NCBI RefSeq assembly: GCF_932294415.1
Contig: NC_065538.1
Location: forward strand, 19,548,667-19,612,666
DNA from: Quercus robur
Taxonomy: Eukaryota > Streptophyta > Magnoliopsida > Fagales > Fagaceae
Direction of reading: 5' to 3'
Length of the DNA stretch: 64,000 nucleotides
In this document: positions 2,352 to 36,545 of the stretch, in pieces
How the letters are laid out: every line of letters starts with the position of its first letter
Numbering within the stretch: position 1 is the stretch's first letter
The notes under the pieces: model-generated
What the model was told of the DNA's origin: nothing
Seen by the model: the letters and a program-made list of their open reading frames with translations, nothing else
Databases searched by the model: none
Translations under genes and position numbers: made by a program

Positions 2352-3335
2352 TTAAGTGGCTGATTTTTCCATAGGTTTGAGCCAGAGGACCATGCAATAC
2401 CTTGGTTCTGTCCAAAACTTAACTTTTTTAAGTAGTTGGTTTCCCCATAGGTTTGAGTCCGAGGACCATGCAATACCTTGGTTCTGTCCAAAACTTGATT
2501 TTTAAGTAGTTGGTTTCCCTATAGGTTTGAGTCCGAGGACCATGCAATACCTTAGTTCTGTCCAAAACTTAACTTTTTTAAGTAGTTGGTTTCCCCATAG
2601 GTTTGAGTCCGAGGACCATGCAATACCTTGGTTCTGTCCAAAACTTGATTTTTTAAGTAGTTGGTTTCCCCATAGGTTTGAGTCCGAGGACCATGCAATA
2701 CCTTGATTTTGTCTAAGACTTAGCTTTTTTACGTAGTTGGTTTCCCCATAGGTTTGAGTCCGAGGACCATGCAATACCTTGATTCTGTCCAAAACTTAGC
2801 TTTTTTAAGTAGTTGGTTTCCCCATAGGTTTGAGTCCGAGGACCATGCAATACCTTGGTTCTGTCCAAAACTTGATTTTTTAAGTAGTTGGTTTCCCCAT
2901 AGGTTTGAGTTCGAGGACCATGCAATACCTTGGTTCTGTCCAAAACTTGATTTTGAAGTAGTTGGTTTCCCCATAGGTTTGAGTCCGAGGACCATGCAAT
3001 ACCTTGGTTCTGTCCAAAACTTGATTTTTTAAGTAGTTGGTTTCCCCATAGGTTTGAGTCCGAGGACCATGCAATACTTTGGTTCTATTCAAAACTTGAT
3101 TTTTTAAGTAGTTGGTTTCCCCATAGGTTTGAGTCCGAGGACCATGCAATACCTTGGTTCTGTCCAAAACTTGATTTTTAAGTAGTTGGTTTCCCCATAG
3201 GTTTGAGTCCGAGGACCATGCAATACCTTGGTTCTGTCCAAAACTTGATTTTTAAGTAGTTGGTTTTCCCATAGGTTTGAGCCCGAGGACCATGCAATAC
3301 CTTGGTTCTGTCCAAAACTTAGCTTTTTTAAATAG
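2352..3335. repeat. Minisatellite, about 13 copies of 73-79 bp
   Basis: The phrase CCATAGGTTTGAGTCCGAGG recurs about every 75 bp, with copies beginning near 2352, 2431, 2508, 2581 and so on to about 3256. Open frames across it in several phases only read the same repeated peptide, so they are by-products. The array is internal to the LTR element and makes up a third of its interior. Confidence 0.9.
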
Positions 3336-3559
3336 TTGGGGGAATTAACCCCTCAGCTATGGCGTGGGACCCTGGTTTAGGGGGATTAGCTCCTCGGCCA
3401 AGCCCCTAGAACCATCCGCGCTACTGATGCTACGAAGCGTAACCCCTATCGAAGAAACGTAGCCCCTAGTGGAACTTTATGCTAGGACACTACAACCGGC
3501 TGTTGGAAATGATGGGGGGATTGTCTCAACCCATCGCCTGTGCCAACACACAAGCCCTT

Positions 3560-3577: not shown

Positions 3578-4256
3578 TGTAGGGATTCAATTCGTGACGA
3601 CCCCAAGATGATATTGGGCTCGTACATAAAGAGGGTCCAAACAATATCATTTGTAGAGCGTGGGTTTGAAGGGCTAGACCTTGGTCACTGGTCGGTGGAT
3701 AACCATGGTGTTCATACAAAAGTAAGCCATGTTCGCTTCAAGGAGTCTTTCTCCTCGATACGGTTTAGGAGGCTCTGATTTTTGGCCTTTTTTCCCAGCC
3801 TCTCTTCCGGATTGCTTGCTTCTCCTTTTATATTAGCCTGTATCCCTTATCCTACGTCCACGTGTAGATTCGACTTTCCAGGACTGATACTTGTCCCATC
3901 AGCCCATACCCAAAGTGGTTGGGAGTGGTTGTAAAAGCTGAAGAGCATGACTCTGTCAGGTGCGGAGTATTCAATGGCAGGAATGACAGCTTTCCCTTTG
4001 TCCTTGGTCGTTATACTATCCAACGTCTCTTTCTCTATTAACATAGATATTTTAGGTTTTTCCCAAAATTGTTCCTATACCGCTCTTGTCCTTTCTTTCA
4101 GGGGGACCTCGGATATGCCGAGGACAAAATTATCCTCGGCTATGTCTCAAGACTACTTGGACTTTTATTATACGTCCTCGGCTATACCCCTCCTCGGCAC
4201 GGGCCTTGGGCCCCAATGTAAAAATGGGTCAGGGCCACAAATTCTTGGGCCCCACA
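3578..4256 (-). repeat. 5' LTR
   Basis: A 679-bp LTR with TG...CA termini, read on the minus strand. A TATAAAAG box near 3824-3831 (minus strand) would be its promoter, and the same box sits at the equivalent place in the solo LTRs further right. CCGAGGA/TCCTCGG motifs are frequent, a feature of this LTR family throughout the window. Confidence 0.88.
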
Positions 4257-4550
4257 AGGGTAATTTTAAAAACTTCTATATTTTTAATTGATAAACAAGG
4301 TATTAAATGATGTTTCCTTAAAAAGTTGGATTTTTTAAACAAAACCTATTTGGGAGAAAGTTAGTACACTTTGTTTTTAAAATTAAAGCAAAATTATATA
4401 CAAATATCAAGAATATCTCATGCAAGTGATGCAACCATAATATATCTGTGGTGAAAATACCATTTTGGTTCTTACGTTTTTGTAGTAGTCAATTTGATCT
4501 ATATTATTTTTAACTTGTCGTTAATTTAGTCTTTACCGTCAACTCACTAA

Positions 4551-15613: not shown

Positions 15614-15687
15614 GCTGGAGTAGCTCAGTTGGTTAGAGCGTGTGGCTGTTAACCTCAAGGTCGAAGGTTCAAGCCCTTCCTCTAGCG
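15614..15687 (+). tRNA. tRNA-Asn (anticodon GTT)
   Basis: A 74-base cloverleaf. The acceptor stem GCTGGAG pairs with CTCTAGC (one G-T pair) with discriminator G. The D arm is GCTC...GAGC, the anticodon loop CTGTTAA puts GTT at 15648-15650, and the T arm GAAGG/CCTTC encloses TTCAAGC. A and B box promoter elements are present (TAGCTCAGTTGG; GGTTCAAGC). There is no intron and no encoded CCA. The anticodon stem TGTGG/CCTCA has one T-T mismatch where the usual plant sequence pairs, so this may be a diverged but foldable copy. A short T-run downstream is not obvious. Confidence 0.85.
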
Positions 15688-16075
15688 CTCTCTTCCATTT
15701 TGCTTTCCTAATGTTCCATCTGGGCCTGAGTCACTCCGATTAGCTTTCGGGCCTCTTTTGCTTTCCTAATATTCCTTCTGGGCCTGAGTCTCTCTGATTA
15801 GCTTTTAGGCCTCATAATTTTACAGTGTGTGCTGGATTTTGTACTTAAAAGAGTTATGAGGTTTTAGGCTCACTACAAACTTATAAAATTTACTATTATT
15901 GTATTCCATTTTTGGCCCCATTCTCTATCCCATGCTCATAGCCTTAGCACCTACATTAGAACAGATAAGATCAAAAACAAAGAACCACCACACACCATGA
16001 TGAAAACCCCATGCAAATATCCAGCTCACTTTTACAAACTATCCAAGCATAGAATCCCTATTACCTTATCAAAAA
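15688..16075. other. Spacer upstream of PnsB3
   Basis: Between tRNA-Asn and the PnsB3 start codon. An imperfect direct repeat of about 55 bp (CTTTTGCTTTCCTAATRTTCC... at about 15700 and 15756) lies here. The PnsB3 promoter and 5' UTR must be in the right half; no TATA box stands out. Confidence 0.5.
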
Positions 16076-18321
16076 ATGGGTACCCTACAACTGAGTTCAT
16101 ATGCTTTATCTTCTTTCTCAACCTCTTTAAACTTCAACTACATTACGAACTCTCATAAAACACTCAAAACCTCCAAGCAACCCCACCCCAGATTCTCTAG
16201 AGGGAAAATCAGAGCTGTTGGCACAATCCCTGAAAATGAATCCCAATCCACAGACCCAGAGGAGCCACCTTTTGTGGCTTTTGCTTTTGTTAGTGTAAGT
16301 TGAAATATTATATATATGTACAATTTTGCATCATATCTAGCTTGTACATATAAGTAATGGAAATTTTATTAATAATAATTTCTGTTTTATGTTTTTTTAA
16401 GTCTGTGTTACTACCAGATGGAACACCTGATGTACATTTTCGAAAAGCATGTGGTGGACAGAAACTTAGGAACATAATGTTGGATTCAAATATTGAGTTG
16501 TATGGACCATATGTAAGTTTTTTAACTTATAATTCATATGATTTATAAGTTGATTTTATTAATAAGCTTTGTGTGTCTATATATATATTCATTATATTGA
16601 TGTTCATTAATTATGTATTGGTTATCAGGCTAGACCTCTGCTAAATTGTGCTGGAGGTGGAACCTGTGCGACGTGTATGGTGGAGGTGGCCTTACTATCT
16701 TGAAACTAATTAATTAAAACGGAAAAAGGATGTGCATAACAAATTTTCTTTCTTTTTTACTTTTTTATATTTTTTAAATCTTAAACTTAAAGCTTCTGCC
16801 TTCTGGTTCATGATTTCTTTTTTTTTTTTTAAAAAAAATTAACTATACACCATTAATCATTAGTGTATTCGGTTTATCAATAGATATTCTAGATCAAAAG
16901 TAGGATTTTAATCGGAAGTGGCTGTCCATCTTGCTTATGCTATTTAATAATTTTTTTTTTTTTTTAAGTTGAAGCTTAAACTTATGGTTGAAATACAATT
17001 TTTATCCTTGAAATTTGGTTAAGATTTGATCATGATCTCCTAAATTTGAAAGATTTCAATTTTATTCTTTTAAAAAAAAATTGAAAGATATCAATTTTAT
17101 CAGTCTCATGACCTGATTGCTGATGCTTGTCCTGTTGTCTTGGTCTCCTATTCAATTTCGATTATGGGGGGCTAAATAAACCAAGGCAAAACTAACATTT
17201 TTTATTATTTATTTTTATATGAAAATACCCAAAACCCCATGTAGGCTCTTCTAAAATATGGGATTTCTTTGGAATTTTTGAATGTAACACAACCTTTTAG
17301 TATTATTTTACATGAAAATGCAACTCTTATTTGAGATATGTGTCATCACATGAGTAACTCATCATTTATTTTGATTTACTCATAAAACCCATAAAGGGTT
17401 AAGGGATTGCGTATTTTTATATAAACCACAAGGAGTTTTGTATAACTTTCCCTTTATCTTTCAAACATAAATAAAACATACTTTGCAGACAAAAAAAACT
17501 ATAGTATCTATTCTATATAATTTTCTCATGTATTGTTAGATTATTCAAGGGAAGGAGCTTCTAACCCCTCGCACGGACAAAGAGAAGGAAAAACTAAAGA
17601 AGGTATATGCTAGTAAAAGCAAATTCTTAATTTTATTTAGTGGGCATAATGTTATTCAAGTACATGTTAATCCAATCAAAATTACTTTGGATTACATTTT
17701 CCTTGTGTATTATTAGAAAATCTTAATTAATTGCTATTTTTATTTAATTAATTACACCGCCTATGTTTTAGACTAAATACTCGAATAAGATAATCTGTAT
17801 ACACCATTGATATGATGGTTATTTCAAAAGTACAAATTCATGTAGGGATGAAAGGCAAAGGCTAGAGTTTTAAAAAAATACATTAAACTCATCATTTACT
17901 ATGCTGGTATTAAGTATTAATCATAATATGCCACCTCATTAGTTGTGAAAAATTTATATCCCTGAGGCTGTTGTAGTTGTGACCTAACATATATGTTCTG
18001 GGGTATGTTTCAGAAACCAAAAAATTGGAGACTTGCTTGTCAACTTACAGTGGGTAAAAAAGATTCTAGAGGCCTGGTTTGTGATATTTCCATTTCATTT
18101 CTTACATTTCAGCAAACAGGAATTTTTTTTTTCTTTGGGTTATCAAGTAATCGTATTCTATTTCACTATAGGCTGGATTAAATTGTTTCTTTTTTCCTCT
18201 GATGCAGCTTGTTGTCCAACAACTGCCTGAATGGAAAGGGCATGAATGGAATTATGAAAGAATATCGCCTGAAGAATTAGCTTCAGAATTAGAGTTAAAT
18301 TTTGGGTCAGAGTCTTCCTAA
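16076..18321 (+). CDS. PnsB3: Chloroplast NDH subcomplex B subunit 3, ferredoxin-like
   Basis: Subunit of the plastid NADH dehydrogenase-like complex used in cyclic electron flow; a [2Fe-2S] ferredoxin-fold protein. Six exons: 16076-16294, 16402-16512, 16629-16685, 17540-17602, 18014-18076, 18208-18321, giving 208 codons plus stop, all exons in phase 0. Residues 1 to about 55 form a Ser/Thr/Lys/Arg-rich, acid-poor plastid transit peptide. The cluster ligands would be Cys117, Cys123, Cys126 (C-x5-C-x2-C) and Cys159 in WRLACQ. The start is the first ATG of the only frame joining exon 2. Intron 3 has a weak donor (GAG|GTGGCC). The neighbour tRNase Z matches the Arabidopsis order At3g16260-At3g16250 (NDF4), from memory. 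The related FdC2 ferredoxin was considered but fits the context less well. Bases from 16244 onward are duplicated at 26046. Confidence 0.88.
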
Positions 18322-18879
18322 CACAGTTTTGCTAATTAATGTACATTTCAAAGAAAGATCTAAAAACCAATATAACATTATGAGGAAATGATGTAAAAAT
18401 ATTGCCTTCAAAGGCATTCAAGGACACTTTTTGTATTGTAATTAAGTCTAAAATCCAATTTCAGTATGGGAAATTCTCTTATAAATTTTCACGCTAGTAA
18501 GATTTGTAACTCAATTGGTTGATATTTTTTTGTATTTTCAAATGAGGTCATTCTACGGTACCCCCTATTTTTTTAGGGAGATACAGTACCCACACAAATC
18601 ATGACCATAAAATTGGTGAAGTTTTAATCTTGACTGTTCATTTTATTTTAAGGATCCAACGATGAAACCTAGTTTCATTGCCATTGTTTTGTATCCCTTT
18701 TTCTTTGTTGGTTTTCAAGGCTACCCATTTGAAAAGGTAGATATAATTTATTTATTATTATTGTAAATTTTCGCATATAAGGGTATGTGGGTTTCTAGTG
18801 TTTGTGTCTATTTGTTCTTTTGAAGTTGCATGTGTATGTGGGTTTGTGTTGTTTTATTGCTTTGCCAGATTAGGCCACT

Positions 18880-19960
18880 TAGTGAATATCCAAAGTAAGC
18901 ATTTGTTAGTTAAACTCACGAGCAAGACAGAGCTTTATGGGTTGGTTCTTATAAATTTGATTGCGCTGGTATTTGAAATGAAATTAGGAGCAGAGTTAAT
19001 AATATGGAATGGTGGCATTTGCTGTGGTTTAACTTGGCCATTCCCAAACACTCATTTGTTGGTTGGATAGTTATTCTTAGTAAGCTTTCAACCAAAGCTA
19101 GAATCTTGCAACGGGGTCTTCCAAGTTCCAGTGGATGGTTTATGTTTTTTGCAGCTTTGGTATTGAGTTCAAGGACCATTTATTTTTTGGTTCTTCTTTT
19201 ACCAAGAGGGTCTGGGAAATTACAATTAACTTGTTTCTAGTATCTTTTGCTAAGACTGATTGGCAGGATAGTATGAGTTAGGTGGAAATAATCTTAAAGG
19301 AAAAGGCTTAAGAACAACCCTTTGCAAACTAGCTTTGTGGGCTACTGTTTATCATGTATGGAAGCAAAAAATTCTATTCTATTTTCTGGGAAGGTATACA
19401 CTAAAGATCAACTTATTTGCATTATAAAGAAGGATGTTCAAGGGAGACTAGAGAGCAAACTATGCAGTTGTGACTCAATGCTTAATCATATCCTTTGCTA
19501 TTAGTGGGGACTCAAATTTGAAATGCTACTACATTATCAAACTAGTGACTGATCTATCCTATGATGGAGAATTATTGAAAGCTTGGTATTGCTGGATATC
19601 TTGTGGTGCTCTATTATTGTCAAAGCCTGGAGGATCTGTTGTTTCATTACTCAATTGTGACATGTTGCTGCTGTGTTAAAAAGTTGTAATAGCTTGATGA
19701 TGTTAATGTATAAATTTTGTTGTAGATTGTGTTTTAGGAGTGGCCAATTTTAGCTTGATTTGTTGAGATCATGGCACACTGTTAAGGGGTGTAAACAGTC
19801 ATAGCCTACTGTTTTGTTGTAGTGGGTCTGTTATAAACTTTTTTTTTACAGAGACCAGTCTTAGTTTTGCTATGGCTTGGGTGTTTTGCCTTGTATTTTG
19901 GTTGATTTCTTAGTCAATAAAAAAACCTCATTGATTCATCAATAAAAGTGAAAAAGGAGG
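18880..19960 (+). pseudogene. LINE (L1-type) reverse transcriptase 3' relic
   Basis: Around 19004-19110 the translation reads WWHLLWFNLAIPKHSFVGW, close to the zf-RVT segment near the C terminus of plant LINE ORF2 proteins. The following frames (alwatvYHvWkqK) resemble the last part of that ORF but are broken by several stops. It ends near a stretch with TCAATAAAAA (about 19914-19925), as LINE 3' ends often do. It has been non-functional for a long time. A second copy is at 31190-32290. Confidence 0.6.
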
Positions 19961-20819
19961 TGGTGATGCAAGACAAGGATAGGAGAAATTAAATGATAAA
20001 AAGAAGAAAAAATATCACAAAAATGCCAAGGAATTAGAGGTCATATATATTAGTATGTTTCAAATGATGGTATGTGAAAATGAGGAAAATATAAGCTTCC
20101 TAATTGAATTAAATGACGGAATTCTTCAAAGAAGCAGTGACAAAGAAAGTGGACTTGGATTTTTGTTTGATGTTCTCATTGTAGGGTACTTTGTAATTTT
20201 TTTTTCATTAAAAAAAAAAAAGAATTGAAATTTGTGTAACATAAGGCCTATAAATTTTGTTTGATGTTTTGAATCTCAAAACATGACAAGAGTAACTTGA
20301 TGATGACACATATTTTGAGTGCTAGTATGTTCTTTTAAATTTTGTGTAAAAGACACATATTTTGGATACTTTATCATCTCTCTTGATATATAACTTTTTA
20401 GCAGTTAAGAACTTCAAAACAATTTTTTAGTTTGAGATTTTAAATGTTGTGAAAACACTCATGCATTAGGGTTCTCTCTTTCTATTGATATAAAACATTT
20501 TAGTTGTCAATAGTTGGCAAGACATTTTTTAGTTGGTTATGATAACAAATTTTTAGTCATCATCTTGTCAATTGGATTATCAATGGCCTTTTCATTACCT
20601 TATGTATTTATTAAAAAATGTAACTAAAATTAAAATGTAGAAAGTTTAAGAAAATAATAATTGGAAAAAATAGTTTATTGATCTTAAATTCAAATTTAGA
20701 CATCCAAACAATGGAATTTCAAATCAAGGTTTTTAAATCCATTAATTTTAAAATCAATGGGTTTCAAATCAAGCAAATAGAGTGGTTGTATAAAATTTTT
20801 ATAGTCAATTTGGTCTTGC

Positions 20820-21800
20820 AAATAGAGGTTTCAGGGGGCATTTGGTCATTTTCATATTTCAAGAATCCTTAGTCATTTTTTAGGTTTCAGGGATATTTTG
20901 GTAATTTTTTAGGTTTTAGGGGCATAACGGTCATTTTTTAGGTTCCAAGCATATTCCAATAATTTTTTAAGTTACGGGGTCATTTCGGTCATTTTTGAGG
21001 TTTTAGGGATATTTCAGTAATTCTTTTAGGTTTTTTTGGGGGCATTATGGTCATTTTTAGGTTAAAAGGGTATTTTAGTCTTTATTTTAGATTTCAGGGT
21101 TATTTAAGTCATTTTTTAGGTTTCAGGGTCATTTGGTCATTTTTTAGGTTCTATTTTTTGATCATTTTTTAGGTTCTATGGATCTTTTAATAATTTTTTA
21201 GGTTTTAGGGTCATTTTTTCAATTATAAGGTTATTTCGGTCTTTTTATAAGTTTCGGGGATATTTCGATCATTTTTTAGATTCTAACGATATTTCGGTAA
21301 TTGTCGAGGATTCGGGGGTATTTTTGTCATTTGCAAGTTTTATGAGGTATTTTGGTCATTTTATTGGTTTCAAGGGTATTTCAAATTTTTTTTTTAAGTT
21401 TTCAATGTCATTTCAGTCATTTTTAAGGTTTTATGAGTATTTCGGTTATTTTTTAGGTTTAAGGTACACTACGGTCGTTTTTTAGGTTCTAAGGGCATTA
21501 TAGTCACTTTTTAAGTTACAAGGTCATTTTAATCATTTTTTAGGTTGCATGGTCATTTAGGTCTTTTTTTTTTTTTTAAGGTTCTAAGGGTATTTCAATC
21601 ATATTTTTAGGTTTAAAGGGTATTTCAATCATTTTTTAGGTTATAGGGTCATGTCGGTCATTTTTTAGGTTTTAAAGATATCTTAGTAATTTTTATGAGT
21701 TTCGAGGTTATATTGGTTATTTTTAAGTGTTAGGATGCATTTTGGTAATTTTAGTATATTTAAGGGTATTTTGGAAATTTTGAAGGTTTTAAGAGTATGT
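20820..21800. repeat. Degenerate minisatellite 1, copy A
   Basis: A roughly 35-45 bp unit built on TCATTTTTTAGGTTT, an AGGG-rich piece and TATTTCGG repeats more than 20 times with substitutions and length changes. It is strand-asymmetric (T and G rich on plus) and has no coding sense. It recurs at 33230-34215. Confidence 0.85.
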
Positions 21801-21889
21801 TTGTTATATATATTCGTCGATTATTAGGTAATTTGAAGGGGGGTTAAGTTGGGTTGGCTATGCCCATGTGTGATGTTGATACTGATTAG

Positions 21890-22580
21890 TGTGACGATCG
21901 AATAGTAAAATGTGAGTAAAAAAAAAATAAGAAAACAATCTAATGTGACAAAAGTACAGTCACATTTAATTTTGGTACTGCCTAATGTGATGACGGAGTT
22001 GTCAAATGTGAGAAAAAAATAAAGGTAAAACTAAATGTGGCAAAAGTACAGTAATATATGATGTTGGTACTGCCTAATGTGACATTTGAACCATCAAATG
22101 TAAGAAAAAAAAATCATCAAATGTGACAAAAGTATAATCACATGTGATATTAGTATTGTACAATGTGACAATAGAATTGTCAAATGTGTGAAAAAAAAAA
22201 TTAAAATACCATCAAATGTGAGAAAAATACAATTATATGTGATGTTGGTACTGCCTAATGTGATAATGAAACCATCAAATGTGAGAAAAAAAATAAAGGA
22301 ATCACCGAATGTGACAAAAGTATAGTCATATATAATGTTAGTACTGCACAATATAAGGATAGAACCGTTAAATGTGAAAAAAAAAATAAGGAAACTACCA
22401 AATGTGGGAAGAAAGTAGGGGAACTACCGAATTTGACAAAAGAACTGTCACATGTGATGTTAGAATTGCACAATGTAAAGATGGAACCGTCAAATGTGAC
22501 AAAAGAACTATCACATGTGATGTTGGAACTGCACAATGTAAAGATAAAACCGTCAAATGTGAGGAAAAAGTAATCTGGTA
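21890..22580. repeat. Degenerate minisatellite 2, copy A
   Basis: Repeats of about 60-75 bp with the phrases TCAAATGTGA, GACAAAAGTA and CACATGTGATGTTGGTACTG, each with a purine run. CACATGTG is itself a palindrome, and the phrases ANNTGTGA recur about every 20 bases. Frames across it on both strands give low-complexity peptides only. It recurs, longer, at 34300-35450. Confidence 0.85.
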
Positions 22581-22997
22581 TAGCAGGTTACCTACTAATG
22601 GATACCGTACCCTCCTTTTTTTTGGGGTACGGTAGAATTACCCTTTCAAATAAGAAATCTAGAGTTCAAATTTTCTCTCTTCCAATTATCGAAAAAAAAA
22701 AATTAATAATAAATTTTCACAATGACAAGACAAGGCATGCAATTATTTTAGTTAACAAATCACATAATGGCAGTAAAATAAAGATATTTAGGACTAAATA
22801 AAAGTATATATTAGGAAAATTGTGAAATCTTATGTCCACTAATTTGGTTGACATTTAAAGAGGCATTTCATTGTAGACCCTTTTGGTTTCGTGTTGTTAA
22901 TATATATATATATATATTTATATATATACCAGAGTAAAAGCAGTTTACCTTCCGTGATTCCCGCAATCTCCTAAACGGATCCAAGACTTCCTCTAGC

Positions 22998-23005
22998 TAT
23001 AAAAG
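22998..23005 (+). promoter_or_regulatory. TATA box of the viral pregenomic promoter
   Basis: TATAAAAG lies about 250 bases before the primer-binding site, the expected arrangement for a caulimovirid pregenomic RNA promoter. The transcript would run toward unit B. Activity is unknown. Confidence 0.5.
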
Positions 23006-23252
23006 GAACCCTTTGCTTTAGTCTTTAGTAGGTCCAGTTAGACTCACCTTTCACAAGGTTCAGTTTAAGACACTACCCCAGAGTCCAGTTTCACTTTGTA
23101 ATAGAAATACATTGTAAACCTAAATGGCTCTCTTCTCCTCTCCCCTAGTTTACACTTGTACTAGAACTACATTTGTAACCTATTTAAGCTTCCGCACTAA
23201 GCCTGCCCATCTGAACGGCACTCTCCCCCTTTGTCTGTAGCTTACCCCCATT

Positions 23253-23268
23253 TGGTATCAGAGCCAAG
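23253..23268 (+). promoter_or_regulatory. tRNA-Met primer-binding site of the viral fragment
   Basis: TGGTATCAGAGCCAAG matches the complement of the initiator tRNA-Met 3' end used by caulimovirids (and by Copia elements). The absence of flanking LTRs and the movement protein downstream decide for a pararetrovirus. Confidence 0.85.
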
Positions 23269-23935
23269 TTTGTGGCCGATAGTAAGTGTTTGTAAGTTAC
23301 TGTAATTATTTTGAAATTCAATCAAGTTGGCCGGTTCAACCGCCATAGTTATCCATTATTTTGTGGTTATACATTACTTTGAAGTATGTTATCTCTAACA
23401 AACATTATTTTGTTTTACATCTATTTTCTAATAGCACTTCCACTCCCATATGTTGCATTCTTCATCTACTACTTCATCTTAGTCAGTGTTTACTGTTCTT
23501 TCTTTTGGTGGTAGGCTGAGCCTCTCGTTCAGTCTTTCTATTTATTATCTTGTGATTACCTGTTTGAGCTAATCCTTTACTTCCCAGTTATCTTCTTCTT
23601 CTTCTTATCTTTGTTTTTAGCCCAAAGTTTGTTGCAGATGTGTACTATTGAGAAGTGTTTGTCCGGTTCTGTGTCGGTTTGTTGCCCTGTAAGACTAATA
23701 TCCTAAAGTGTGTCAATACTCGCGGCCAAGCAGTAATTCCTGTTAAGCTAGGAGAGCGTTAGGGTTTGCGTACGGTGGGGTTTCAGTACACCAGAATAGG
23801 AGTAAGTGGTAACAAGTGTCACAGAAGGCATCAGTCTCTTTAGAACACCCCTGTTTCAGATCTAAGGTTAGATCCAGAAATTGGAAGATAAAGGTAGTCT
23901 AGGTTGTAATTGATTTCTTAGGCTTTTAATCCAAA

Positions 23936-26029
23936 ATGATAAATAGGATATTTAGAAGGAGTGATTCATCCACCAGCATTAGATCTAGCAGTACAACCCT
24001 CCTTGAGATTCCACAAGAAGATGGAACAATCAACTCGGAGTCGTACCAACTTTCAGATCTAGATTAGAAGTTAGGAGATTGGAACATACCCAAAGTTCCC
24101 ACAACCCAGGTCTATAAGTCATCATCGTGGTCCTTGAAAAAGTCTTTTAGAACAGACTACCATGTTAGGACTATAGAACAAATCTACAGCATCAACAAGG
24201 AGTATGAAACATGCTACTTGTTATCCCCTGCAGCCGTGAAAGCCCACAGGGAAAAAGATCATAAATTCCTCCACATTGGTCTTGTCCAAGTAGGAGTAAA
24301 ACCAATAATCAGAGAAGGGTTGAACAACTCAATCCTTATGGCCCTTAAAGACACTCGTCTTATTAGGTTTAATGACAGTCTTCTAGGCACAATTGAATCC
24401 AGTTTGAGTAACGGACTAGTTCACTTTGACTGTTTCCCCAACCTCACTGTAGCACTGGACGACCCTCACATCTTGAAGGTCCTCACCCTCAACATTAAAA
24501 CCCATGGAACCCTTGTGTTACATGACACCAAACAGCTTGTCCTTATATACAGAGTGTATTATAAATGCATGAGAACAAACATGTCTATTCAAGCAGTAGG
24601 CAAGAGAAAGGCTGGTGAAACCACCCTTATCCAAACCCCAGACGTTAGATCCACAGTTCAGGTACCTAGAACCCTGAAATGATCTCAAGTCACTTTCCCA
24701 GCACATTGGACTATAGATAATGAAAATTATCCTCTACAAGTCCAAAACCCAGTTAGGAACCCAGATCTAGATTTTGTCCAGCAATTAGCCGATGGAACGA
24801 TTAGACTAAGCTTTGACCAGTCTAGATTTCGATCACCTTTAGAATATGATGAACCCAGGCCCAGATCTTCGGTAGATCTGTACCAGGAACCAAGGTCTAG
24901 ATCCGTAGATCTACGCCAACCCTTTAGGCGGCCAACTATCCACTTGAGAGATAGACCTGCATCCCAATGTAATTCGTCTAGAACACGAGCTCCCTTTCCC
25001 ACATCTAGAAGAGACTTAGGTCCACAGTTTCAAGGTGTTAAAGACCATTCCCAGGTTAGTACCCCTTGTTACACAGCCAAGCAAGACTCAGTTACTGATC
25101 TAGAAGAAGACAGCACTAGTCAGGACAGTCTTAAGCCCCCTTCACCATCAGGAACTGATATGAGAAATTCTATTCAGCAGGAAACTGAATATGACTATCA
25201 GCTCTTAATGTTGACAAAAGAGTTCACTCCTGATATGGACACTCTTGAAAAGGATTTTAACTCTGAAAGAAACAGAGCTAAAAGAGAAGCCTATAGAGCC
25301 AACCATACCAGAGAACAATAAGAAGAAGTTTTGGAGAAATGGAAGTTATTCATGAAAGAAGTATCCAGTGATTATCCTTTCTTTGAATACTTTGAGAAAC
25401 ATTTCAAATGGCAGAAAAAGTCTTGTGTCAAAACCAAACTTTCAACCAGCCCTAACCAACCAACAAGTGTTAGGAATCCAGCACAAGAAGTAGAGAAACC
25501 AGTCTCTCCTTCACCAAAAGTTAATGTCTTAGAAGCTCACATATCCTCTAATAGTTCTAGTAGACCCTCCTCAGAAGATGAAAAGGAGAAAGAACAACTA
25601 GACGACCAGCTTGGAGATACACCCCCAATCCCTCCTAAGAAAAGGATATCCAAATATAGAGGAAAAGAAACCTCTAAAGATTTCCATAGGAAGAAAACAG
25701 TTTCCAGACAATATAGAAAGCAGAAGTTCAAGAATGATGATTTCTATAAAAAAGGAAACCCCAACTCCATAGAAAACCTCAAACCTAAAGCAAAAGGAAA
25801 ATGCTTTAAATGTGGGAAGAAAGGACATCTCAAGAATGAATGTCCAGGAAAATCTCCTACCAATTCCCTAATCAGTGAAGATATCTCCAAGGTTCTAGAA
25901 CTGGACCACACAGAAAGTGAGTCTCCCAATAGTTCTATTAACCGAGAAATCTATCAGATTTACCAGTTCTCATCCTCTCCTAGAGTTTCAACTAGCACCT
26001 CTAGTAGTCCAGATGAAGTCATTTATTGA
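23936..26029 (+). pseudogene. Viral polyprotein 5' part: movement protein and coat protein, broken
   Basis: One frame from the ATG at 23936 to the stop at 26027, interrupted by TAG at 24065, TGA at 24680 and TAA at 25319. The segment 24134-24680 is a 30K-type movement protein, which enlarges plasmodesmata for cell-to-cell spread. The segment after 24683 is a hydrophilic Arg/Ser/Pro-rich linker and coat-protein-like region with a CCHC zinc knuckle (C-x2-C-x4-H-x4-C, codons 25802-25843) that binds viral nucleic acid. Ser-rich and acidic sequence follows it. The three stops are the only breaks seen; there are no frameshifts, which suggests modest age or decay mainly by point mutation. The rest of the polyprotein is missing. 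Confidence 0.82.
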
Positions 26030-26042
26030 CAACCCAATCCTG

Positions 26043-29000
26043 ATGCAATCCACAGATCCAGAGGAGCCACCTTTTGTGGCTTTTGCTTTTGTTAGTGTAA
26101 GTTGAAATATTATATATATGTACAATTTTGCATCATATCTAGCTTGTACATATAAGTAATGGAAATTTTATTAATAATAATTTCTGTTTTATGTTTTTTT
26201 AAGTCTGTGTTACTACCAGATGGAACACCTGATGTACATTTTCGAAAAGCATGTGATGGACAGAAACTTAGGAACATAATGTTGGATTCAAATATTGAGT
26301 TGTATGGACCATATGTAAGTTTTTTAACTTATAATTCATATGATTTATAAGTTGATTTTATTAATAAGCTTTGTGTGTCTATATATATATTCATTATATT
26401 GATGTTCATTAATTATTTATTGGTTATCAGGCTAGACCTCTGCTAAATTGTGCTGGAGGTGGAACCTGTGCGACGTGTATGGTGGAGGTGGCCTTACTAT
26501 CTTGAAACTATTTTTTTTTTTTGATTAAAAGACAGTAACTTTATTAAGAAGAAGATAAAAGCAGTATATCTTGAGCCAAGGCGGACTCAATAAAGTCTGG
26601 ATTTTCCTCTATCCAAGTTACATAATTGTCAATATTCTTGGCATGTTGAGCCAATATGTGAGCTGGCCGGTTCCCTGTTCGCTTAACATGTGAAAACTGG
26701 AATGACCTGAATGCCTGTACCTTCTGACCAATGCCTATAATGATGTTATAGATGGATTCTTGAGGACAGCTAGCACCGAGCATAGCATCTACGATCATTT
26801 TTGAATCACATTCAAAAAGAACATCCCTTATACCAACATCCCAAGCGAAGTCCACAGCTTCCTCCAGAGCTTTAGCCTCAGCTTCTAAAGGACCCAAAGG
26901 ACAGAACACCTTCTTGCTCAAGGCTGCTGCTACCAGGCCACCATGGTCTCTGATGATGACCCCCACACCCGATGCCTGTTGGGCCTCAAAAACTGCTCCA
27001 TCGACGTTGACCTTGTACCATGGCGGAGAAGGGTTGGTCCACTGTTCCCTAACATGCATCACCGTCTGTGAAGGTTGGAAGTTGGCAAGCTGAAACTCCT
27101 CAAGCAACAGTCGTGCCTTCTGCAGAATCGTTGCTGCCGTTTGTCGTGCCTTTCCTTGTCGGACTGCATTCCTGTTAAACCACATACTCCAGGCAACTGT
27201 TATTACAAGTTCCAACAATTCATTACCCACCCGCTGATAGAATTGTAGATGCCACAAGAGATCAATGAAGTCTCGTAAGTGTACCCCACAATTATCAAAC
27301 GGAATTCCTGATAACTTCCATACTTCCTGAGCTCGGTCACAACTCCAGAATAGGTGACCATCGGATTCAGCGCCTAACCCACATGCTTCGCAAATCGGAT
27401 CATTAAGGACTTTCCGATGACACAAATTGTCCTTTGTAGGTAAAATATTACGACTCGCTCGCCAAGCAAATGACTTAACTTTATTTGGGACATTTAATCG
27501 CCAGAGATTTTTCCAAAAGCTACTACGATTTCCACTGCTGGAACTGTCAGTTCTCTGATCCGAAGAAGAAGACAAGGCTATCTTGAAACTAATTAATTAA
27601 AACGGAAAAAGCATGTGCATAACAAATTTTCTTTCTTTTTTATTTTTTATATTTTTTAAATCTTAAACTTAAAGCTTCTGCCTCTGGTTCATGATTTTTT
27701 TTTTTTTTTTAAATAACTATACACCATTAATCATTAGTGTATTCGGTTTATCAATTGATATTCTAGATCAAAAGTAGGATTTTAATTGGAAGTGGCTGTC
27801 CATTTTGCTTATGCTGTTTAATAATTTTTTTTTTTTTTTTTTTTAAGTAGAAGCTTAAACTTATGGTTGAAATACAATTTTTATCCTTGAAATTTGGTTA
27901 AGATTTGATCATGATCTCCTAAATTTGAAAGATTTCAATTTTATTCTTGAAAAAAAATTGAAAGATATCAATTTTATCAGTCTCATGACCTGATTGCTGA
28001 TGCTTGTCCTGTTGTCTTGGTCTCCTATTCAATTTCGATTATGAAGGACTAAATAAACCAAGGCAAAACTAACATTTTTTATTTTTATATGAAAATACCC
28101 AAAACCCCATGTAGGCTCTTCTAAAAAATGGGATTTCTTTGGAATTTTTGAATGTAACACAACCTTTTAGTATTGTGGGGGGTATAAAACCCGGGAAGCC
28201 CATGTCAATGTTTGCGCTGGGCCTAGGGCCCGATCCGAGGAAGGCCCACCCCTTGGCCATGAGAAGGATACCCCTTGGCCATGAGAAGGACCCTCCTCGG
28301 CCATAAATGTAGCCGAGGGCAAAAGGGAGCAACTTAGCCCTAGTGATGACATTTCGGGTCATTTCGCCTTACAGGAAAAGTACTAAAACGACAAAGAACA
28401 AGGGAAAGGCTGCCATTACTGCAATTAAGTACTCTGCACTTAATAGAGCCATGCTTTTCAGCTTTTACAACCATCCCAATCACTTTGGGTATGGGCTGAT
28501 AGGACAAGTATCAGCCCTAAAAAGACGAACCTACACGTGGGCGTTCATGGGAGGGGAAAAAGCTAGTATAAAAGGAGGAGGAAGCAGTCCAGAAAAAAGG
28601 GAGGGGATCAGGTCCAAGAACCGGAACCACCCAGGCCGTGCCGAGGAGAAAGTCTTCTTGGATAAGCTCAGTTCACCTTTGTGCGATTGTTATGAACACC
28701 ATGGCTAACGACTGTCCGTTCACCAAGGCCTAGCCTTTTAGCCCACTCTCTACAAATTTATTGTTTGGGCCTTTAACGTTTGAACCCAATACCAATTTGG
28801 GATCGTTACAAATGGAGTCCTTACAAGTATTATTTTACATGAAAATGCAACTCTTATTTGAGATATGTGTCATCACATGAGTAATTCATCATTTATTTTG
28901 GTTTACTCATAAAACCCATAAAGAGTTAAGGGATTGTGAATTTTTATATAAACCACAAGGAGTTTTGTATAACTTTCCCTTTATCTTTTTTTTTTTTTTT

Positions 29001-29895
29001 TTTGAAAACACTTTCCCTTTATCTTTCAAACATAAATAAAACATACTTTGCAGACAACAAAAACTATAGTATCTATTCTATATAATTTTCTCATGTATTC
29101 ATTGTATTGTTAGATTATTCAAGGGAAGGAGCTTCTAACCCCTCGCACGGACAAAGAGAAGGAAAAACTAAAGAAGGTATATGCTAGTAAAAGCAAATTC
29201 TTAATTTTATTTAGTGGGCATAATATTATTCAAGTACACGTTAATCCAATCAAAATTACTCCGGATTACATTTTCCTTGTGTATTATTAGAAAATCTTAA
29301 TTAGTTGCTATTTTTATTTAATTAATTACACTGCCTATGTTTTAGATTAAATACTTGAATAAGATAATTTGTATACACCATTTACGTGACGGTCACTTCA
29401 AAAGTACAAATTCATGTAGGGATGAAAGGCAAAGGCTAGAGTTTTAAAAAAATACATTAAACTCATCATTTACGATGTTGGTATTAAGTATTAATCATAA
29501 TATGCCGCCTTAGTAGTTGTGAAAAATTTATATCCCGGAGGCTATTGTAGTTGTGACCTAACATTTATGTTCTGGGGTATGTTTCAGAAACCAAAAAATT
29601 GGAGACTTGCTTGTCAACTTACAGTGGGTAAAAAAGATTCTAGAGGCCTGGTTTGTGATATTTCTCTTTCATCTCTTATATTTCAGCAAACTGGAATTTT
29701 TTTTTTCTTTGGGTTATCAAGTAATCATATTCTATTTCACTATAGGTTGGATTAAATTATTTCTTTTTTCCTCTGATGCAGCTTGTTGTCCAACAACTGC
29801 CTGAATGGAAAGGGCATGAATGGAATTATGAAAGAATATCGCCTGAAGAATTAGCTTCAGAATTAGAGTTAAATTTTGGGTCAGAGTCTTCCTAA
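26043..29895 (+). CDS. Second, transit-peptide-less PnsB3 copy with a start codon at the viral junction
   Basis: Exons 26043-26096, 26204-26314, 26431-26487, 29114-29176, 29588-29650, 29782-29895, giving 153 codons plus stop. The first three bases (ATG, 26043-26045) come from the viral side; the next base starts codon 57 of PnsB3 in the correct frame. All splice sites of copy A are retained. In the shared coding sequence I find only two changes, one silent (GAT for GAC) and one Gly to Asp next to Cys (ACGGQ to ACDGQ). The four presumed cluster cysteines remain (62, 68, 71, 104). The transit peptide is gone, so the product, if made, would stay in the cytosol. Intron 3 has grown to 2.6 kb by a LINE and a solo LTR. 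It may be an untranscribed pseudogene; the open frame alone cannot tell. Confidence 0.5.
26511..27577 (-). mobile_element. 5'-truncated LINE insertion in intron 3 of the second PnsB3 copy
   Basis: A 1067-bp insertion ending in poly(A) on the minus strand (T-run at 26511-26522). It is flanked by the 14-bp target duplication CTATCTTGAAACTA (26497-26510 and 27578-27591), which occurs once in unit A (16693-16706). 5' truncation, A-tail and a target duplication of this size are hallmarks of L1-type retrotransposition. It sits only about 23 bases after the intron 3 donor site. Confidence 0.93.
26544..27575 (-). pseudogene. LINE ORF2 C-terminal fragment: zf-RVT and RNase H domains
   Basis: An uninterrupted 343-codon frame filling the insertion. 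Residues about 20-85 are the zf-RVT zinc-binding segment (FAWRASRNILPTK, CEACG, GHLFWSC). Residues about 185-320 are an RNase H domain of the plant LINE kind, with the acidic positions in NVDGAV, LEAEAKALEEA and ECDSKMIV, and the late GNRPAHILAQHA. The reverse transcriptase and endonuclease parts are missing through 5' truncation, so it cannot move itself. The absence of stops indicates a young insertion. The first Met is fortuitous. Confidence 0.88.
28174..28825 (+). mobile_element. Solo LTR in intron 3 of the second PnsB3 copy
   Basis: A 652-bp LTR starting TGTGGGGGG and ending CCTTACA, with target duplication AGTAT (28169-28173 and 28826-28830). Unit A has the undisturbed site (TTTTAGTATTATTTTAC, about 17301-17317). 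It has a TATAAAAGG box at about 28567 and is related to the LTRs at 1-664 and 3578-4256. Only one LTR remains, so internal DNA was lost by LTR recombination. Confidence 0.93.
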
Positions 29896-30316
29896 CACAG
29901 TTTTGCTAATTAATGTACATTTCAAAGAAAGATCTAAAAACCAATATAACATTATGAGGAAATGATGTAAAAATATTGCCTTCAAAGGCATTCAAGGACA
30001 CTTCTTGTATTGTAATTAAGTCTAAAATCCAATTTCAATATGGGAAATTCTCTTATAAATTTTGATGCTAGTAAGATTTGTAACTCAATTAGTTGATATT
30101 TTTTGGTATTTTCAAATGAGGTCATTCTACGGTACCCCTTATTTTTTTAGGGAGGTACGGTACCCACACAAATCATAACCATAAAATTGGTGAAGTTTTA
30201 ATCTTGACGGTTCATTTTATTTTAAGGATCCAACGATGAAACCTAGTTTCATTGCCATTGTTTTGTATCCCTTTTTCTTTGTTGGTTTTTCAAGGCTACC
30301 CATTTGAAAAGGTAGA

Positions 30317-30924
30317 TGTGGGGTCAGAGAATTTATGACCCCGGCCCATTTTATATTAAGGCCCAAGGCCCAAGCCGAGAAGAGGCATTGTCGAGGACGT
30401 ACAATGAAAGTCCAAATGGCCTATGGATATAACTGAGGACGATTTTGTCCTCGGCATCCCAAAGCGCTCCTAAAAGAAAGGGCGAGCACAGTGCAGGAGC
30501 GGCCCAAGTAAAAGGCTGCTAGTATTGCAATAAAGCACTCTGCACCTGACAGGACCATATTCTTCAGCTTTTACAACCACCCCCAACCACTCTGGGTATG
30601 GGCTGATGGGACAAGTATTAGTCCTGGAAAGTCGAACTCACACATGGACGTTGGATAAGGGGTATAGGCTAATATAAAAGAAAAAGTAAGCAATCCAGAA
30701 AAGGGGCTGGGAAAAAAGGCCAAGAACCAGAGCCTCCCAAACCGTATCGAGGAGAAAGACTCCTCGAACGAACATGGTTTTATTCTGTATGAACACCATG
30801 ACCAACCACCGTTCGATGACCAAGCCCTAGCCTTTCAAACCCACGCTCTACAAATTATATTGTTTGGGCCCTTAACATACGAACCCAACATCAGTTTGGG
30901 GTCGTTACGAATTGAGTCCTTACA
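30317..30924 (+). mobile_element. Solo LTR inside the copy B element
   Basis: A 608-bp LTR, TGTGGGG...CCTTACA, with target duplication GTAGA (30312-30316 and 30925-30929). Unit A shows the single GTAGA at about 18738-18742. It carries a TATAAAAG box near 30675 and CCGAGGA-like motifs, so it belongs to the same family as the LTR at 28174. Confidence 0.92.
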
Positions 30925-31189
30925 GTAGATATATGCAATTATTTCGAAGGATTAATGTCGATTTTTCTATGGGTGGGGGGGGGGGGGGAATCTTTAATCT
31001 TCTCCATGATTTGTTATATGAGTTGATTAACAGTATCAATATTCATTTGTTATGTTTTATTTATTTATTTATTATTATTATTATTGTAAATTTTCGCATA
31101 TAGGGGTATGTGGGTTTCTAGTGTTTGTGTCTATTTGTTCTTTTGAAGTAGCATGTGTATGTGGGTTTGTGTTGTTTTATTGCTTTGCT

Positions 31190-32290
31190 TGCCAGATTAG
31201 GCGACTTAGTGAATATCCAAAGTAAGCATTTGTTAGTTAAACTCATGAGCAAGACAGAGCTTTATGGGTTGGTTCTCATAAATTTGATTGTGCCGGTATT
31301 TGAAATGAAATTAGGAGCAGAGTTAGTAATATGGAATGGTGGCATTTGCTGTGGTTTAACTTGGCCATTCCCAAACATTCATTTGTTGGTTGGATAGTTA
31401 TTCTTAGTAAGCTTTCAACCAAAGCTAGAATCTTGCAACAGGGTCTTCCAAGTTCTAGTGGATGGTTTGTGTTTTCTGCAGCTCTGGTATTGAGTTCAGG
31501 GACCATTTATTTTTTGGTTCTTCTTTTACCAAGAGGGTCTGGGAAATTACAATTAATTTGTTTCTAGTATCTTTTTCTAAGACTGATTGGCAGGATAGTA
31601 TGAGTTAGGGGGAAATAATCTTAAAGGAAAAGGCTAAGAACAACCCTTTACAAACTAGCTTTGTGGGCTTCTATTTATCATGTATGGAAGCAAAAAATTC
31701 TATTATATTTTCTGGGAAGTTATACATTGAAGATCAACTTATTTGCATTATAAAGAAGGATGTTCAATGGAGACTAGAGAGCAAACTATGCGGTTGTGAC
31801 TCAATGCTTAATCATATCCTTTGCTATTAGTGGGGACTCAAATTTGAAATGCTACTACATTATCAAACTAGTGACTGATCTATCCTATGATGGAGAATTA
31901 TTGAAAGCTTGGTATTGCTAGATATCTTGTGGTGCTCTATTATTGTCAAAGCCTAGAGGATCTGTTGTTTCATTGCTCAATTGGGACATGTTGCTGTTGT
32001 GTTAAAGAGTTGTAATAGATTGATGATGTTAATGTATAAATTTTGTTGTAGATTGTGTTTTAGGAGTGGCTAGTTTTAGCTTGATTTGTTGAGATCATGG
32101 CGCATTGTTAAGGGGTGTCAGTAGTCATAGCCTGCTTTTTTGTTGTAGTGGGTCTATTATAAACTTTTTTTTACAGAGGCTAGTCTTAGTTTTGCTATGG
32201 CTTGGGCTTGGTTGTTTTGCCTTGTATTTTGGTTGATTTCTTAGTCAATAAAAAAACCTCATTGATTCATCAATAAAAGTGAAAAATGAG
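31190..32290 (+). pseudogene. LINE 3' relic, second copy
   Basis: The duplicate of 18880-19960, again with the LWFNLAIPKHSFVGW segment (about 31345-31390) and stops in every frame. Stops are largely shared with copy A, so decay preceded the duplication. Confidence 0.6.
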
Positions 32291-33229
32291 GTGGTGATGC
32301 AAGACAAGGACATGAGAAAATAAATGATAAAGAGAAGAAAAAATATCACAAAAATGCCAAGGAATTAGAGGTCATATACATATACTAGTATGTTTCAAAT
32401 GATGGTATGTGAAAATGAGGAAAATATAAGCTTCCTAATTGAATTGAAAGATGGAATTCTTCAAAGAAGCAGTGACAAAGAAAGTGGACTTGGATTTTTG
32501 TTTGATGTTCCCATTGTAGGGTACTTTGTATTTTTTTTTTTTCAAAAAAAAAAAAGTATTGAAATTTGTGTTACATAAGGCCTATAAATTTTGTTTGATG
32601 TTTTGAATCTCAAAACATGACAGGAGTAACTTGATAATGACACATATTTTGAGTGCTAGTACGTTCTTTTAAATTTTGTGTAAAAGAGACATATTTTGGA
32701 TACTTTATTGTCTCTCTTGATATATAACTTTTTAGTAGTTAAGAACTTCGAAACAATTTTTTAGTTTGTGATTTTAAATGTTGTGAAAAAACTCATGCAA
32801 TAGGGTTCTCTCTTTCTATTGATATAAAACATTTAGTTGTCAATAGTTGGCAAGACATTTTTTTAGTTGGTTATGATGACAAAATTTTAGTCATCATCTT
32901 GTCAATTGGATTATAAATGGCCTTTTCATTACCTTATGTATTTATTAAAAAATGTTACTAAAATTAAAATGTAGAAAGTTTAAGAAAATAATAATTGGAA
33001 AAAATAGTTTATTGATCTTAAATCCAAATCCAAATCCAAATTTAGACATCCAAACAATAGAATTTCAAATCCTTCATTGTATAAAAAGACCCCAACAAGG
33101 AATTTAAAAATCAATGGATTTCAAATCAAGGTTTTTAAATCCATTAATTTTAAAATCAATGGGTTTCAAATCAAGCAAATAGAGTGGTTGTATAAAAATT
33201 TTATTGTCATTTTGATCTTGCAAATAGAT

Positions 33230-34215
33230 GTTTCGGGGGGCATTTTGGTCATTTTAATATTTCAAGAATCCTTAGTCATTTTTTAGGTTTCAGGGATATT
33301 TCGGTAATTTTTTAGGTTTTGGGGCATAACAGTCATTTTTTAGGTTCCAAGCGTATTTCAATAATTTTTTAAGTTACAAGGTCATTTTGGTCATTTTCGA
33401 GGTTTCAGGGGTATTTCAATAATTCTTTTAGGTTTTTTGGGGGCGTTATGGTCATTTTTAGGTTAAAAGGGTATTTTAGTCTTTATCTCAGAATTCAGGG
33501 TTATTTAAGTCATTTTCTAGGTTTTAGGGTCATTTAGTCATTTTTTAGGTTCTATGGGTATTTTGATCATTTTTTAGGTTCTTTGGATCTTTTAATAATT
33601 TTTTAGGTTTTAGGGTCATTTAGTCATTTTTTAGGTTCTATGGATCTTTTAATCATTTTTTGGGTTATAAGGGTATTTCGGTCTTTTTTTAGGTTTCGGG
33701 GGTATTTTGATCATTTTTTAAGTTCTCAGGATATTTCATTAATTGTTGAGGATTTGGGGGTATTTTTGTCATTTTTAATTTTTATGAGGTATTTTGGTCA
33801 TTTTATTGGTTTCAAGGGTATTTCAATTTTTTTTTTTTTTAAGTTTTCAATGTCATTTCAATCATTTTTAAGGTTTTATGAGTATTTCGGTCATTTTTTA
33901 GGTTCTAAGGGCATTATAGTCACTTTTTAAGTTACAAGGTCATTTTAATCATTTTTTAGGTTGCATGGTCATTTAGGTCATTTTTTTAAGGTTCTAAGGG
34001 TATTTCAATCATATTTTTAGGTTTAAAGGGTATTTCAGTCATTTTTTAAGTTATAGGGTCATTTCAGTCATTTTCTAGGTTTTAAGGATATCTTAGTAAA
34101 TTTTATGAATTTCGAGTTTATATTGGTCATTTTTAAGTGTTAGAATGCATTTTGATAATTTTAGTATATTTAAAGGTATTTCGGAAATTTTAAAGGTTTT
34201 AAGAGTATGTTTGTT
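33230..34215. repeat. Degenerate minisatellite 1, copy B
   Basis: Same units as 20820-21800 (TCATTTTTTAGGTT plus TATTTCGG-like pieces), about the same total length but with local gains and losses of single units near 33560-33660. Confidence 0.85.
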
Positions 34216-34299
34216 ATATATATTCATCGATTATTAGGTAATTCGATAGGGGTTGAGTTGGGTTGGCTACGCCCATGTGTGATGTTGATACTGATTAGT

Positions 34300-34887
34300 A
34301 TGACGATTGAATAGTAAAATGCGAAAAAAAAAAAAAAAAAGAACAATTGAATGTGAAAAAAGTACGGTTATATTGATTTTGGTACTGCCCAATGTGATGA
34401 TATAATTGTCAAATGTGAGAAAAAAAATAAGGGTAAAACTAAATGTGGCAAAAGTATAGTCATATATGATGTTGGTACTACCTAATGGGACATTTGAACC
34501 ATCAAATGTAAGAAAAAAAAAGGGAATTATCAAACGTGACAAAAGTATAGTCATATGTGATATTAGTATTGTGTAATGTAACAATAGAATTGTCAAATAT
34601 GAGAAAAAAATTAAAATACCATTAAATGTGAGAAAAATACAATTATATGTGATGTTGGTATTGCCTAATGTGACAATGAAACCATCAAATGTGAGAAAAA
34701 AAATAAAGGAATCACCGAATATGACAAAAGTATAGTCATATGTGATGTTGGTACTGCACAATATAAAGATAGAACCATCAAATGTGAGGAAAAAAAATAA
34801 AGAAACTACCAAATGTGACAAAAGTACTATCAAATGTAATGTTGGTATTGTCGAATGTGACAATAGAACCATCAAATTTGAGAAAAG

Positions 34888-34926
<39 letters not shown>

Positions 34927-35450
34927 AACCACCAAATCTGACAAAAGAACTATCACATGTGATGTTGGAACTGCACAATGTGGGGGATGAAATCGTCAAA
35001 TGTGAGAAGAAAGTAACGGAACCACTGAATGTGACAAAAGAACTGTCACATATGAGGATGGAACCATCAAATGTGAGAAGAAAGTAAGGGAACCGTCGAA
35101 TATGAAAAAAGAACCGTCACATGTGATGAAACCGTCACATGTGAGGATGAAACCGTCAAATGTGAGAAGAAAGTAATGGAACCATTGAATGTGGCAAAAG
35201 AACTGTCACATGTGATGTTGGAACTGCACAATGTGAGGATGAAACCGTTAAATGTGAGAAGAAAGTAAGGAAACCACAGAATGTGACAAAAAAACTGTCA
35301 CATGTGATATTAGAACTACACAATTTGAGAGTGGAACTATCAAATATGATAAAAAGGTAAGGAAACCATCAAATGTCACAAAAGAATTGTCACATGTGAT
35401 GTTGGAATTGCATAATGTAAGAATAAAACCGTCAAATGTGAGAAAAAAGT
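34300..35450. repeat. Degenerate minisatellite 2, copy B (expanded)
   Basis: The counterpart of 21890-22580 but about 460 bp longer. Extra units with GAACCGTCACATGTGA and GAGAAGAAAGTAA lie at 34980-35280. A 40-base A run is at 34885-34924. Confidence 0.85.
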
Positions 35451-35527
35451 AATTTGGTATAAAAGGTTACCTATTAATGGGTACTGTACCCCTTTTTTTG
35501 GGTACCGTAGAATTATCCTTTCAAATA

Positions 35528-35779
35528 AGAAATCTAGAGTTCAAATTTTCTCTCTCCCAATTATCACACTATAAAAAAAAAAAAAATGATAATAAATTTT
35601 CACAATGACAAGACAAGGCATGCAATTATTTTAGTTGACAAATCATATAATGGCAGTAAAATAAAGATATTTAGGACTAAATAAAAGTATATATCAGGAA
35701 AATTGTGAAATCTTATGTCCACTAATTTGGTTGACATTTAAAGAGACATTTCATTGTAGACCCTTTTGGTTTCGTGCTG

Positions 35780-35820
<41 letters not shown>

Positions 35821-36076: not shown

Positions 36077-36086
36077 CAAGAAACGG

Positions 36087-36535
36087 GGACAAAATTGGCT
36101 TCTGCCCTTTTCGGGCAAATTAATTAGTCTTTTGCCATTCTTCCTAAACTAAATAGGGAAATGCTCCTCTTTTGAAAATCGAGTTTTTCAAAATCGAGTT
36201 AAGCCCTATAATGACGTTTTCAAGGACCTATAGTGACGTTTTTAAAGACTTATAGTGGCGTTTTGTAACTTGATATCCATGAAATCGAGTTATAGGCAAT
36301 AAAATTGCCTATAACTCGATTTCATGGATATCAAGTTATAAAACGTCACTATAGGTTCTTAAATCGTCACTATAGGTCCTTAAAAACGTTACTATAGAAC
36401 TCCAAAATTTTTTTTTTTTTTAACTCGATTTTGAGAAACTCAATTTTCAAAAGAGGGACATTTCCCTATTTTGTTTGGGAAGAAGGGCAAAAGGCTAATT
36501 AATTTGCCCGAAAAGGGCAGAAACCCATTTTGTCC
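36087..36535. mobile_element. Foldback MITE (long hairpin), 449 bp
   Basis: The two halves are inverted copies meeting near 36298 (TATAGGCAATAAAATTGCCTATA), with arms of about 210-220 bases differing at a modest number of positions. Termini are GGACAAAATTGG and CCCATTTTGTCC. The flanking repeat CAAGAAACGG (36077-36086 and 36536-36545) is 9-10 bp, which suits a Mutator-type transposase. It is non-coding. The arms could fold as one hairpin in RNA. Confidence 0.85.
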
Positions 36536-36545
36536 CAAGAAACGG

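Follow-up and report, generated by a model that had tools for sequence, protein, structure and literature searches.

The stretch of Quercus robur DNA analysed here (the window; 64,000 bases, C5:19548667-19612666) carries a tandem duplication of PnsB3, which self-comparison of the window resolved into a unit A followed by a unit B (Table 1). Copy A is an intact gene, and its protein is identical over the full length to P0001, the Quercus robur photosynthetic NDH subunit of subcomplex B 3 isoform X6. Copy B starts at PnsB3 codon 57, behind an endogenous caulimovirid fragment of about 3.1 kb. Genome searches were carried out against the oak assembly (785.7 Mb in 42 contigs). The PnsB3 protein gave 11 matches there, all of them within copies A and B, and the single exon 1 start found by this search belongs to copy A. 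A tRNA-Asn gene lies just 5' of copy A, at 15614-15688. Minisatellite arrays with units of about 29 and about 92 bases are present in both duplication units (20826-22573 and 33225-35453) and differ in copy number between them. A further tandem array at 2352-3339, made of units of about 75 bases that are 90-94% alike, is flanked by two 665-base repeats (1-665 and 3593-4257), which are 95% identical to one another.

Table 1. Features of the PnsB3 duplication and of the caulimovirid junction, in window coordinates
Feature	Position	Strand	Remarks
Copy A, intact PnsB3 gene	16076..18321	+	six coding exons, 208 aa, with transit peptide
Unit A of duplication	16244..22928	+	3' end is TA repeat 22900-22928
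Endogenous caulimovirid fragment	22929..26022	+	truncated promoter, leader, movement-protein piece, coat-protein-region piece with zinc knuckle; left edge +/- few bases
TATA box of truncated viral promoter	22998..23004	+	
Primer-binding-site-like sequence	23253..23265	+	TGGTATCAGAGCC; putative, by pattern match
Viral movement-protein fragment	24134..24682	+	PF01107, E 6.8e-16
Viral coat-protein-region fragment	25331..26029	+	zinc knuckle PF00098; frame closes inside filler
Upstream in-frame ATG in viral sequence	26013..26015	+	start of 163-aa open frame
Junction filler	26023..26045	+	23 bases, holds ATG at 26043
Unit B of duplication	26046..35811	+	3' end is TA repeat 35783-35820
Copy B exon 1, truncated	26046..26096	+	from codon 57
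Copy B exon 2	26204..26314	+	carries Gly91Asp
Copy B exon 3	26431..26487	+	three of four cluster cysteines
LINE fragment in B intron 3	26514..27577	-	direct repeat CTATCTTGAAACTA on both sides
Solo-LTR-like insertion in B intron 3	28175..28825	.	direct repeat AGTAT
Copy B exon 4	29114..29176	+	identical to A
Copy B exon 5	29588..29650	+	identical to A; fourth cysteine
Copy B exon 6	29782..29895	+	with stop codon, identical to A
Third B-specific insertion, 3' of gene	30318..31066	.	partly related to repeats 1-665 and 3593-4257

A sequence-only reading of the locus had described copy B as a PnsB3 duplicate deprived of its transit peptide, with all downstream exons and splice sites intact and one amino-acid change, and in these respects it was accurate. 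Codons 1-56, which encode the N-terminal transit peptide, are missing from copy B, while its five introns are all kept with GT/AG borders and the stop codon is intact, despite an intron divergence of about 3%. The presence of all five introns ruled out a retrocopy. Copies A and B differ at two of their 459 shared coding bases, through a synonymous change (GAC/GAT) and a replacement of Gly91 (GGT in A), beside a Cys, with Asp (GAT in B, within KACDGQK). The residue at this position is Gly in 48 of 48 aligned homologues and in all 120 homologues listed (the best 120 of 434; 117 by pattern and three by reading the sequences). The cluster cysteines, arranged as C-x5-C-x2-C followed by a fourth, are all retained in copy B and are likewise found in each of those 120. 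A domain scan detected a Fer2 domain in the PnsB3/NDF4 duplicate, and the mature ferredoxin-like domain of copy B matched solved PnsB3 chains (9grx_3, E 3.7e-72; 7wff_c, 4.8e-69; 7eu3_8, 1.1e-55), which cover residues 7-137 of the truncated protein. A structure model of copy A, with a mean pLDDT of 46, was too poor for judging the effect of Gly91Asp. As the transit peptide is lost, we class copy B as a PnsB3 paralogue by descent and not as a plastid subunit. No protein more than 84% identical to copy B, other than P0001, was found among the 120 listed of 434 homologues; P0001 represents a cluster of 12 sequences, so that a copy B protein merged into it would stay hidden from such a search.

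At the junction itself, the ATG at 26043-26045 directly precedes codon 57 in frame, giving a reading of 153 residues, as had been proposed. The accompanying proposal that this ATG comes from the viral fragment was not supported. Viral homology extends no further than query base 77, corresponding to window position 26022, in 38 of 38 other viral places (from 40 of 62 candidates scored, minus the window itself and copy A), and beyond that point the viral copies run on differently in six of six aligned. The ATG thus forms the last three bases of the filler, which matches neither the compared viral copies nor copy A, and a search of the assembly for a 28-base pattern spanning these bases, with up to three mismatches allowed, found it a single time. 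A viral origin of the ATG at 26043 was rejected on these grounds, although the filler could still derive from a virus less closely related than the copies compared. Part of the filler, TGACAACCCAATCC, resembles exon 1 at the break over a local stretch of 14 bases, a weak likeness with an uncorrected P of 0.02 by shuffling. The notion that the filler is an eroded extension of exon 1 was discarded, as the anchored alignment did not reach significance under any of three scorings or against either of two controls (P 0.08-0.16).

The viral sequence does contain an in-frame ATG, at 26013, which the sequence-only reading overlooked. It lies 30 bases 5' of the ATG at 26043, with no stop between them and the nearest upstream in-frame stop at 25896, and lengthens the frame to 163 residues, made up of three viral codons, one mixed codon and seven filler codons, followed by PnsB3 from codon 57. 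When positions 23100-26045 were joined in turn to codon 57, an open in-frame ATG was obtained from 26% of them, and from 25% window-wide. An open frame is therefore unremarkable in copy B, and the caution already voiced, that it could be due to chance, proved well placed.

The caulimovirid fragment belongs to a dispersed set of copies in the host genome. Sequences related to its 3' end were found at 38 other places (40 of 62 candidates scored) and to its 5' end at 39 (40 of 235 candidates scored), and each of the 15 viral loci compared with the window matches within 22922-26022. The coat-protein-region fragment has 64 relatives, and one of the three scanned bears a caulimovirus coat domain (PF22909). 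A search of IMG/VR with this fragment gave nine pattern matches and no confirmed one, and no matching solved structure was found for it. No reverse transcriptase was detected in the two open reading frames of the caulimovirid piece that were scanned, which says little in view of its fragmentary state. Several viral matches lie close together at C5:42117349-42134551 (about 17 kb) and at C38:44752352-44898496 (about 146 kb), which suggests local clusters of caulimovirid copies. Three short matches outside the main one, at 36146-36200, 36401-36476 and 58214-58402, came from parts of loci L012 and L018 away from their viral matches. The window has a MITE-like inverted repeat pair at 36086-36536, with 117-base arms that are 91% complementary, and L012 holds stretches related to it about 1 kb from its viral match; positions 58214-58402 are 76% identical to a part of L018 outside the viral match of that locus.

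The proposal of a pararetroviral promoter about 3 kb upstream of copy B survives in reduced form. A TATA box remains, but only about 70 viral bases are left above it. In nine of nine viral copies fetched and read by eye, similar sequence continues upstream of the first bases of the fragment, and the fragment was thus cut about 70 bases above the TATA box at 22998. For an unspliced transcript starting near 23028, 37 ATGs precede position 26013 (between 23028 and 26012), and the three frames of 23020-26045 contain 101, 24 and 55 stops. Simple scanning would therefore not reach the chimera, which could be translated only after splicing, by internal initiation or from a different start site. Donor-like GTAAG/GTATG motifs are present at 23282, 23292, 23384, 23689, 23802 and 24202, by which splicing within the viral leader may be possible. 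The base at -3 is C at both the ATG at 26013 and that at 26043, and A at the start of copy A.

Divergence between the two copies was used to ask whether copy B has been under selection. Counted pairwise, and not polarised by an outgroup, they differ at 2 of 459 exon positions, 50 of 1601 intron positions (3.1%) and 90 of 2445 flanking positions. Constraint on copy A alone accounts for part of the contrast between exons and introns (Fisher P 0.0003). Since such constraint on A is to be presumed, the proper test is whether copy B, taken by itself, was free to change. A plain half-rate model, with A constrained and B neutral, expects 7.2 exon differences (P 0.026), and a model that allows synonymous change in A, with B neutral, expects 9.5-10.6 (P 0.0017-0.0042). 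When the exon mask was slid along the differences, P was 0.013 for the gene and 0.0035 for a longer region. With both copies constrained, 4.7-6.8 exon differences are expected against the two seen (P 0.03-0.16), and the likelihood of two differences is about 18-30 times higher than with B neutral. All of these tests draw on the same A/B data, and differences in mutation rate between exons and introns lie outside the models. Along the gene, exons 4-6 show no difference in 240 bases and introns 3-5 show 49 in 1378. Introns 1 and 2, at one in 223, are as low as the exons, and the first 468 bases of copy B are 99% identical to copy A, introns included, which points to conversion or chance in this 5' block. 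The longest identical run between the copies comprises exon 6 and its 3' side, and divergence by segment ranges from 0 to 6%. These comparisons lean slightly towards constraint or homogenisation of copy B, and its sole replacement, falling at an invariant residue, counts against selection. Unit B carries three insertions; the section of unit A that was compared (16244-20800) has none. The earlier suggestion of a credible new chimeric gene fared unevenly, with the exon/intron contrast leaning in its favour, and the invariant-Gly change, the three insertions in B and the want of a separately listed B protein leaning against it.

We consider that copy B is probably a truncated duplicate that arose through end joining, and that its frame, though intact, gives rise to little protein or none. 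It would have arisen as a 5'-truncated tandem duplicate of PnsB3 by illegitimate end joining, in which a caulimovirid fragment starting at a TA repeat became joined, through the 23 filler bases seen between them, to a second copy whose exon 1 had been broken behind the transit-peptide codons. The open frame would be a matter of ordinary luck, at about one join in four as computed above. A transcript from the truncated viral promoter, or one reading through, could be spliced normally, and with 37 AUGs upstream it would then give little B protein or none. The low exon divergence may owe more to a low local mutation rate, to gene conversion or to chance than to function. The join could have been reached by end joining of a chromosome carrying a viral insert in the TA repeat to exon 1 of an insert-free chromosome, or in one step, by template switching in which replication left the TA repeat for viral DNA and then returned to the gene at exon 1. 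Either route yields the order A, virus, B with no virus after unit B, and the data do not separate them.

Against this stands a working chimeric gene, translated from the ATG at 26013 or 26043 into 163 or 153 residues, and kept by selection as a ferredoxin-like PnsB3 without plastid targeting, its transcript starting in the viral region or at a cryptic site. The depletion of exon differences, with the likelihood ratio given above for constraint on both copies over neutrality of B, speaks for such a gene, as do the intact frame and splice sites and a truncated protein that spans the region of the solved PnsB3 chains with its four cluster cysteines. We nevertheless regard it as unlikely, given the cut promoter, the many upstream ATGs, the C at -3 of both candidate starts and the lack of a separate B entry among the best 120 of 434 proteins. 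The divergence data themselves cut the other way in part, since the 5' block looks converted and not selected, constraint on both copies predicts more exon differences than were seen, and the one replacement strikes a Gly invariant among the homologues listed. The fullest form of this idea is quite unlikely, namely that a duplicate of a plastid NDH subunit was freed from the organelle through end joining to caulimovirid DNA and became a cytosolic 2Fe-2S ferredoxin-like protein, its frame opening with the viral, mixed and filler codons described above, under purifying selection in oaks and possibly driven by the reduced viral promoter.

The exons of copy B might instead be used by copy A, if A exon 1 with its transit peptide were spliced over about 10 kb to B exon 2, which would give a plastid PnsB3 with Asp91. 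The phases at such a junction match (the end of A exon 1 and the start of B exon 2 are both phase 0), the low exon divergence fits, and exon sharing would explain why the B exons were kept with no start of their own; the name 'isoform X6' moreover hints that several transcript models exist for this gene in oak. When the A and B parts were joined into one query and the 7991 candidates sharing most words were scored, the search nevertheless returned no Quercus protein except P0001 among those named in the best 120 of 321 matches, although an A+B product would share the 90% cluster of copy A. On balance we hold exon sharing to be less probable still. Assemblies of heterozygous trees are known to contain false tandem near-copies, and the two copies could in principle be haplotypes or mis-joined contigs. 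The window, however, contains no Ns, the copies differ by segment and over their introns to the extent given above, several distinct insertions set them apart, and the base-level junction with its filler occurs once. An artefact is accordingly very improbable. Our preferred reading thus remains that of a truncated, end-joined duplicate, and the locus is interesting but probably a silent by-product of DNA repair.

No report of this PnsB3-caulimovirid locus was found in the literature listings searched, and several described systems resemble it in part. The florendovirus report (PMC4241990) describes viral DNA in TA dinucleotide repeats, with bases gained at the join, and proposes that viral DNA serves as filler at breaks. 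The oak locus shares the TA repeat, the gained bases and the proposed filler role, but its element is classed to the caulimovirid level only and lies where tandemly duplicated gene units meet. In eggplant, the VR1 co-transcripts presented in PMC8346255 likewise link a host gene to endogenous caulimovirid DNA that may provide a viral promoter. The eggplant RNA was observed directly, and the host gene is disrupted. The oak case is known from DNA alone; its host portion is a duplicate with the frame preserved, and the original gene next to the junction is undamaged. Neither Quercus nor any other Fagaceae appears in Table 1 of PMC8346255. AtMP of Arabidopsis, in the account given in a passage of PMC10377300, is also a caulimovirid-plant gene fusion. 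It is fused with a viral movement-protein gene, while the oak frame has just 10 viral and 23 filler bases and would encode a protein that is nearly all host. Loss of organelle targeting after gene duplication, in the portion of PMC7086175 that treats it, also yields a duplicate without a transit peptide; in oak, by comparison, a rearrangement break removed the transit peptide, and viral DNA forms part of the resulting join.

According to the part of a 2023 review that deals with the question (PMC10377300), there is little evidence for plants having taken over caulimovirid genes or regulatory elements. A frame-preserving join of virus and host next to an intact parent gene offers a cheap and clear test case for such takeover, and even if silent, the locus shows viral DNA and filler bordering a gene duplication in oak.
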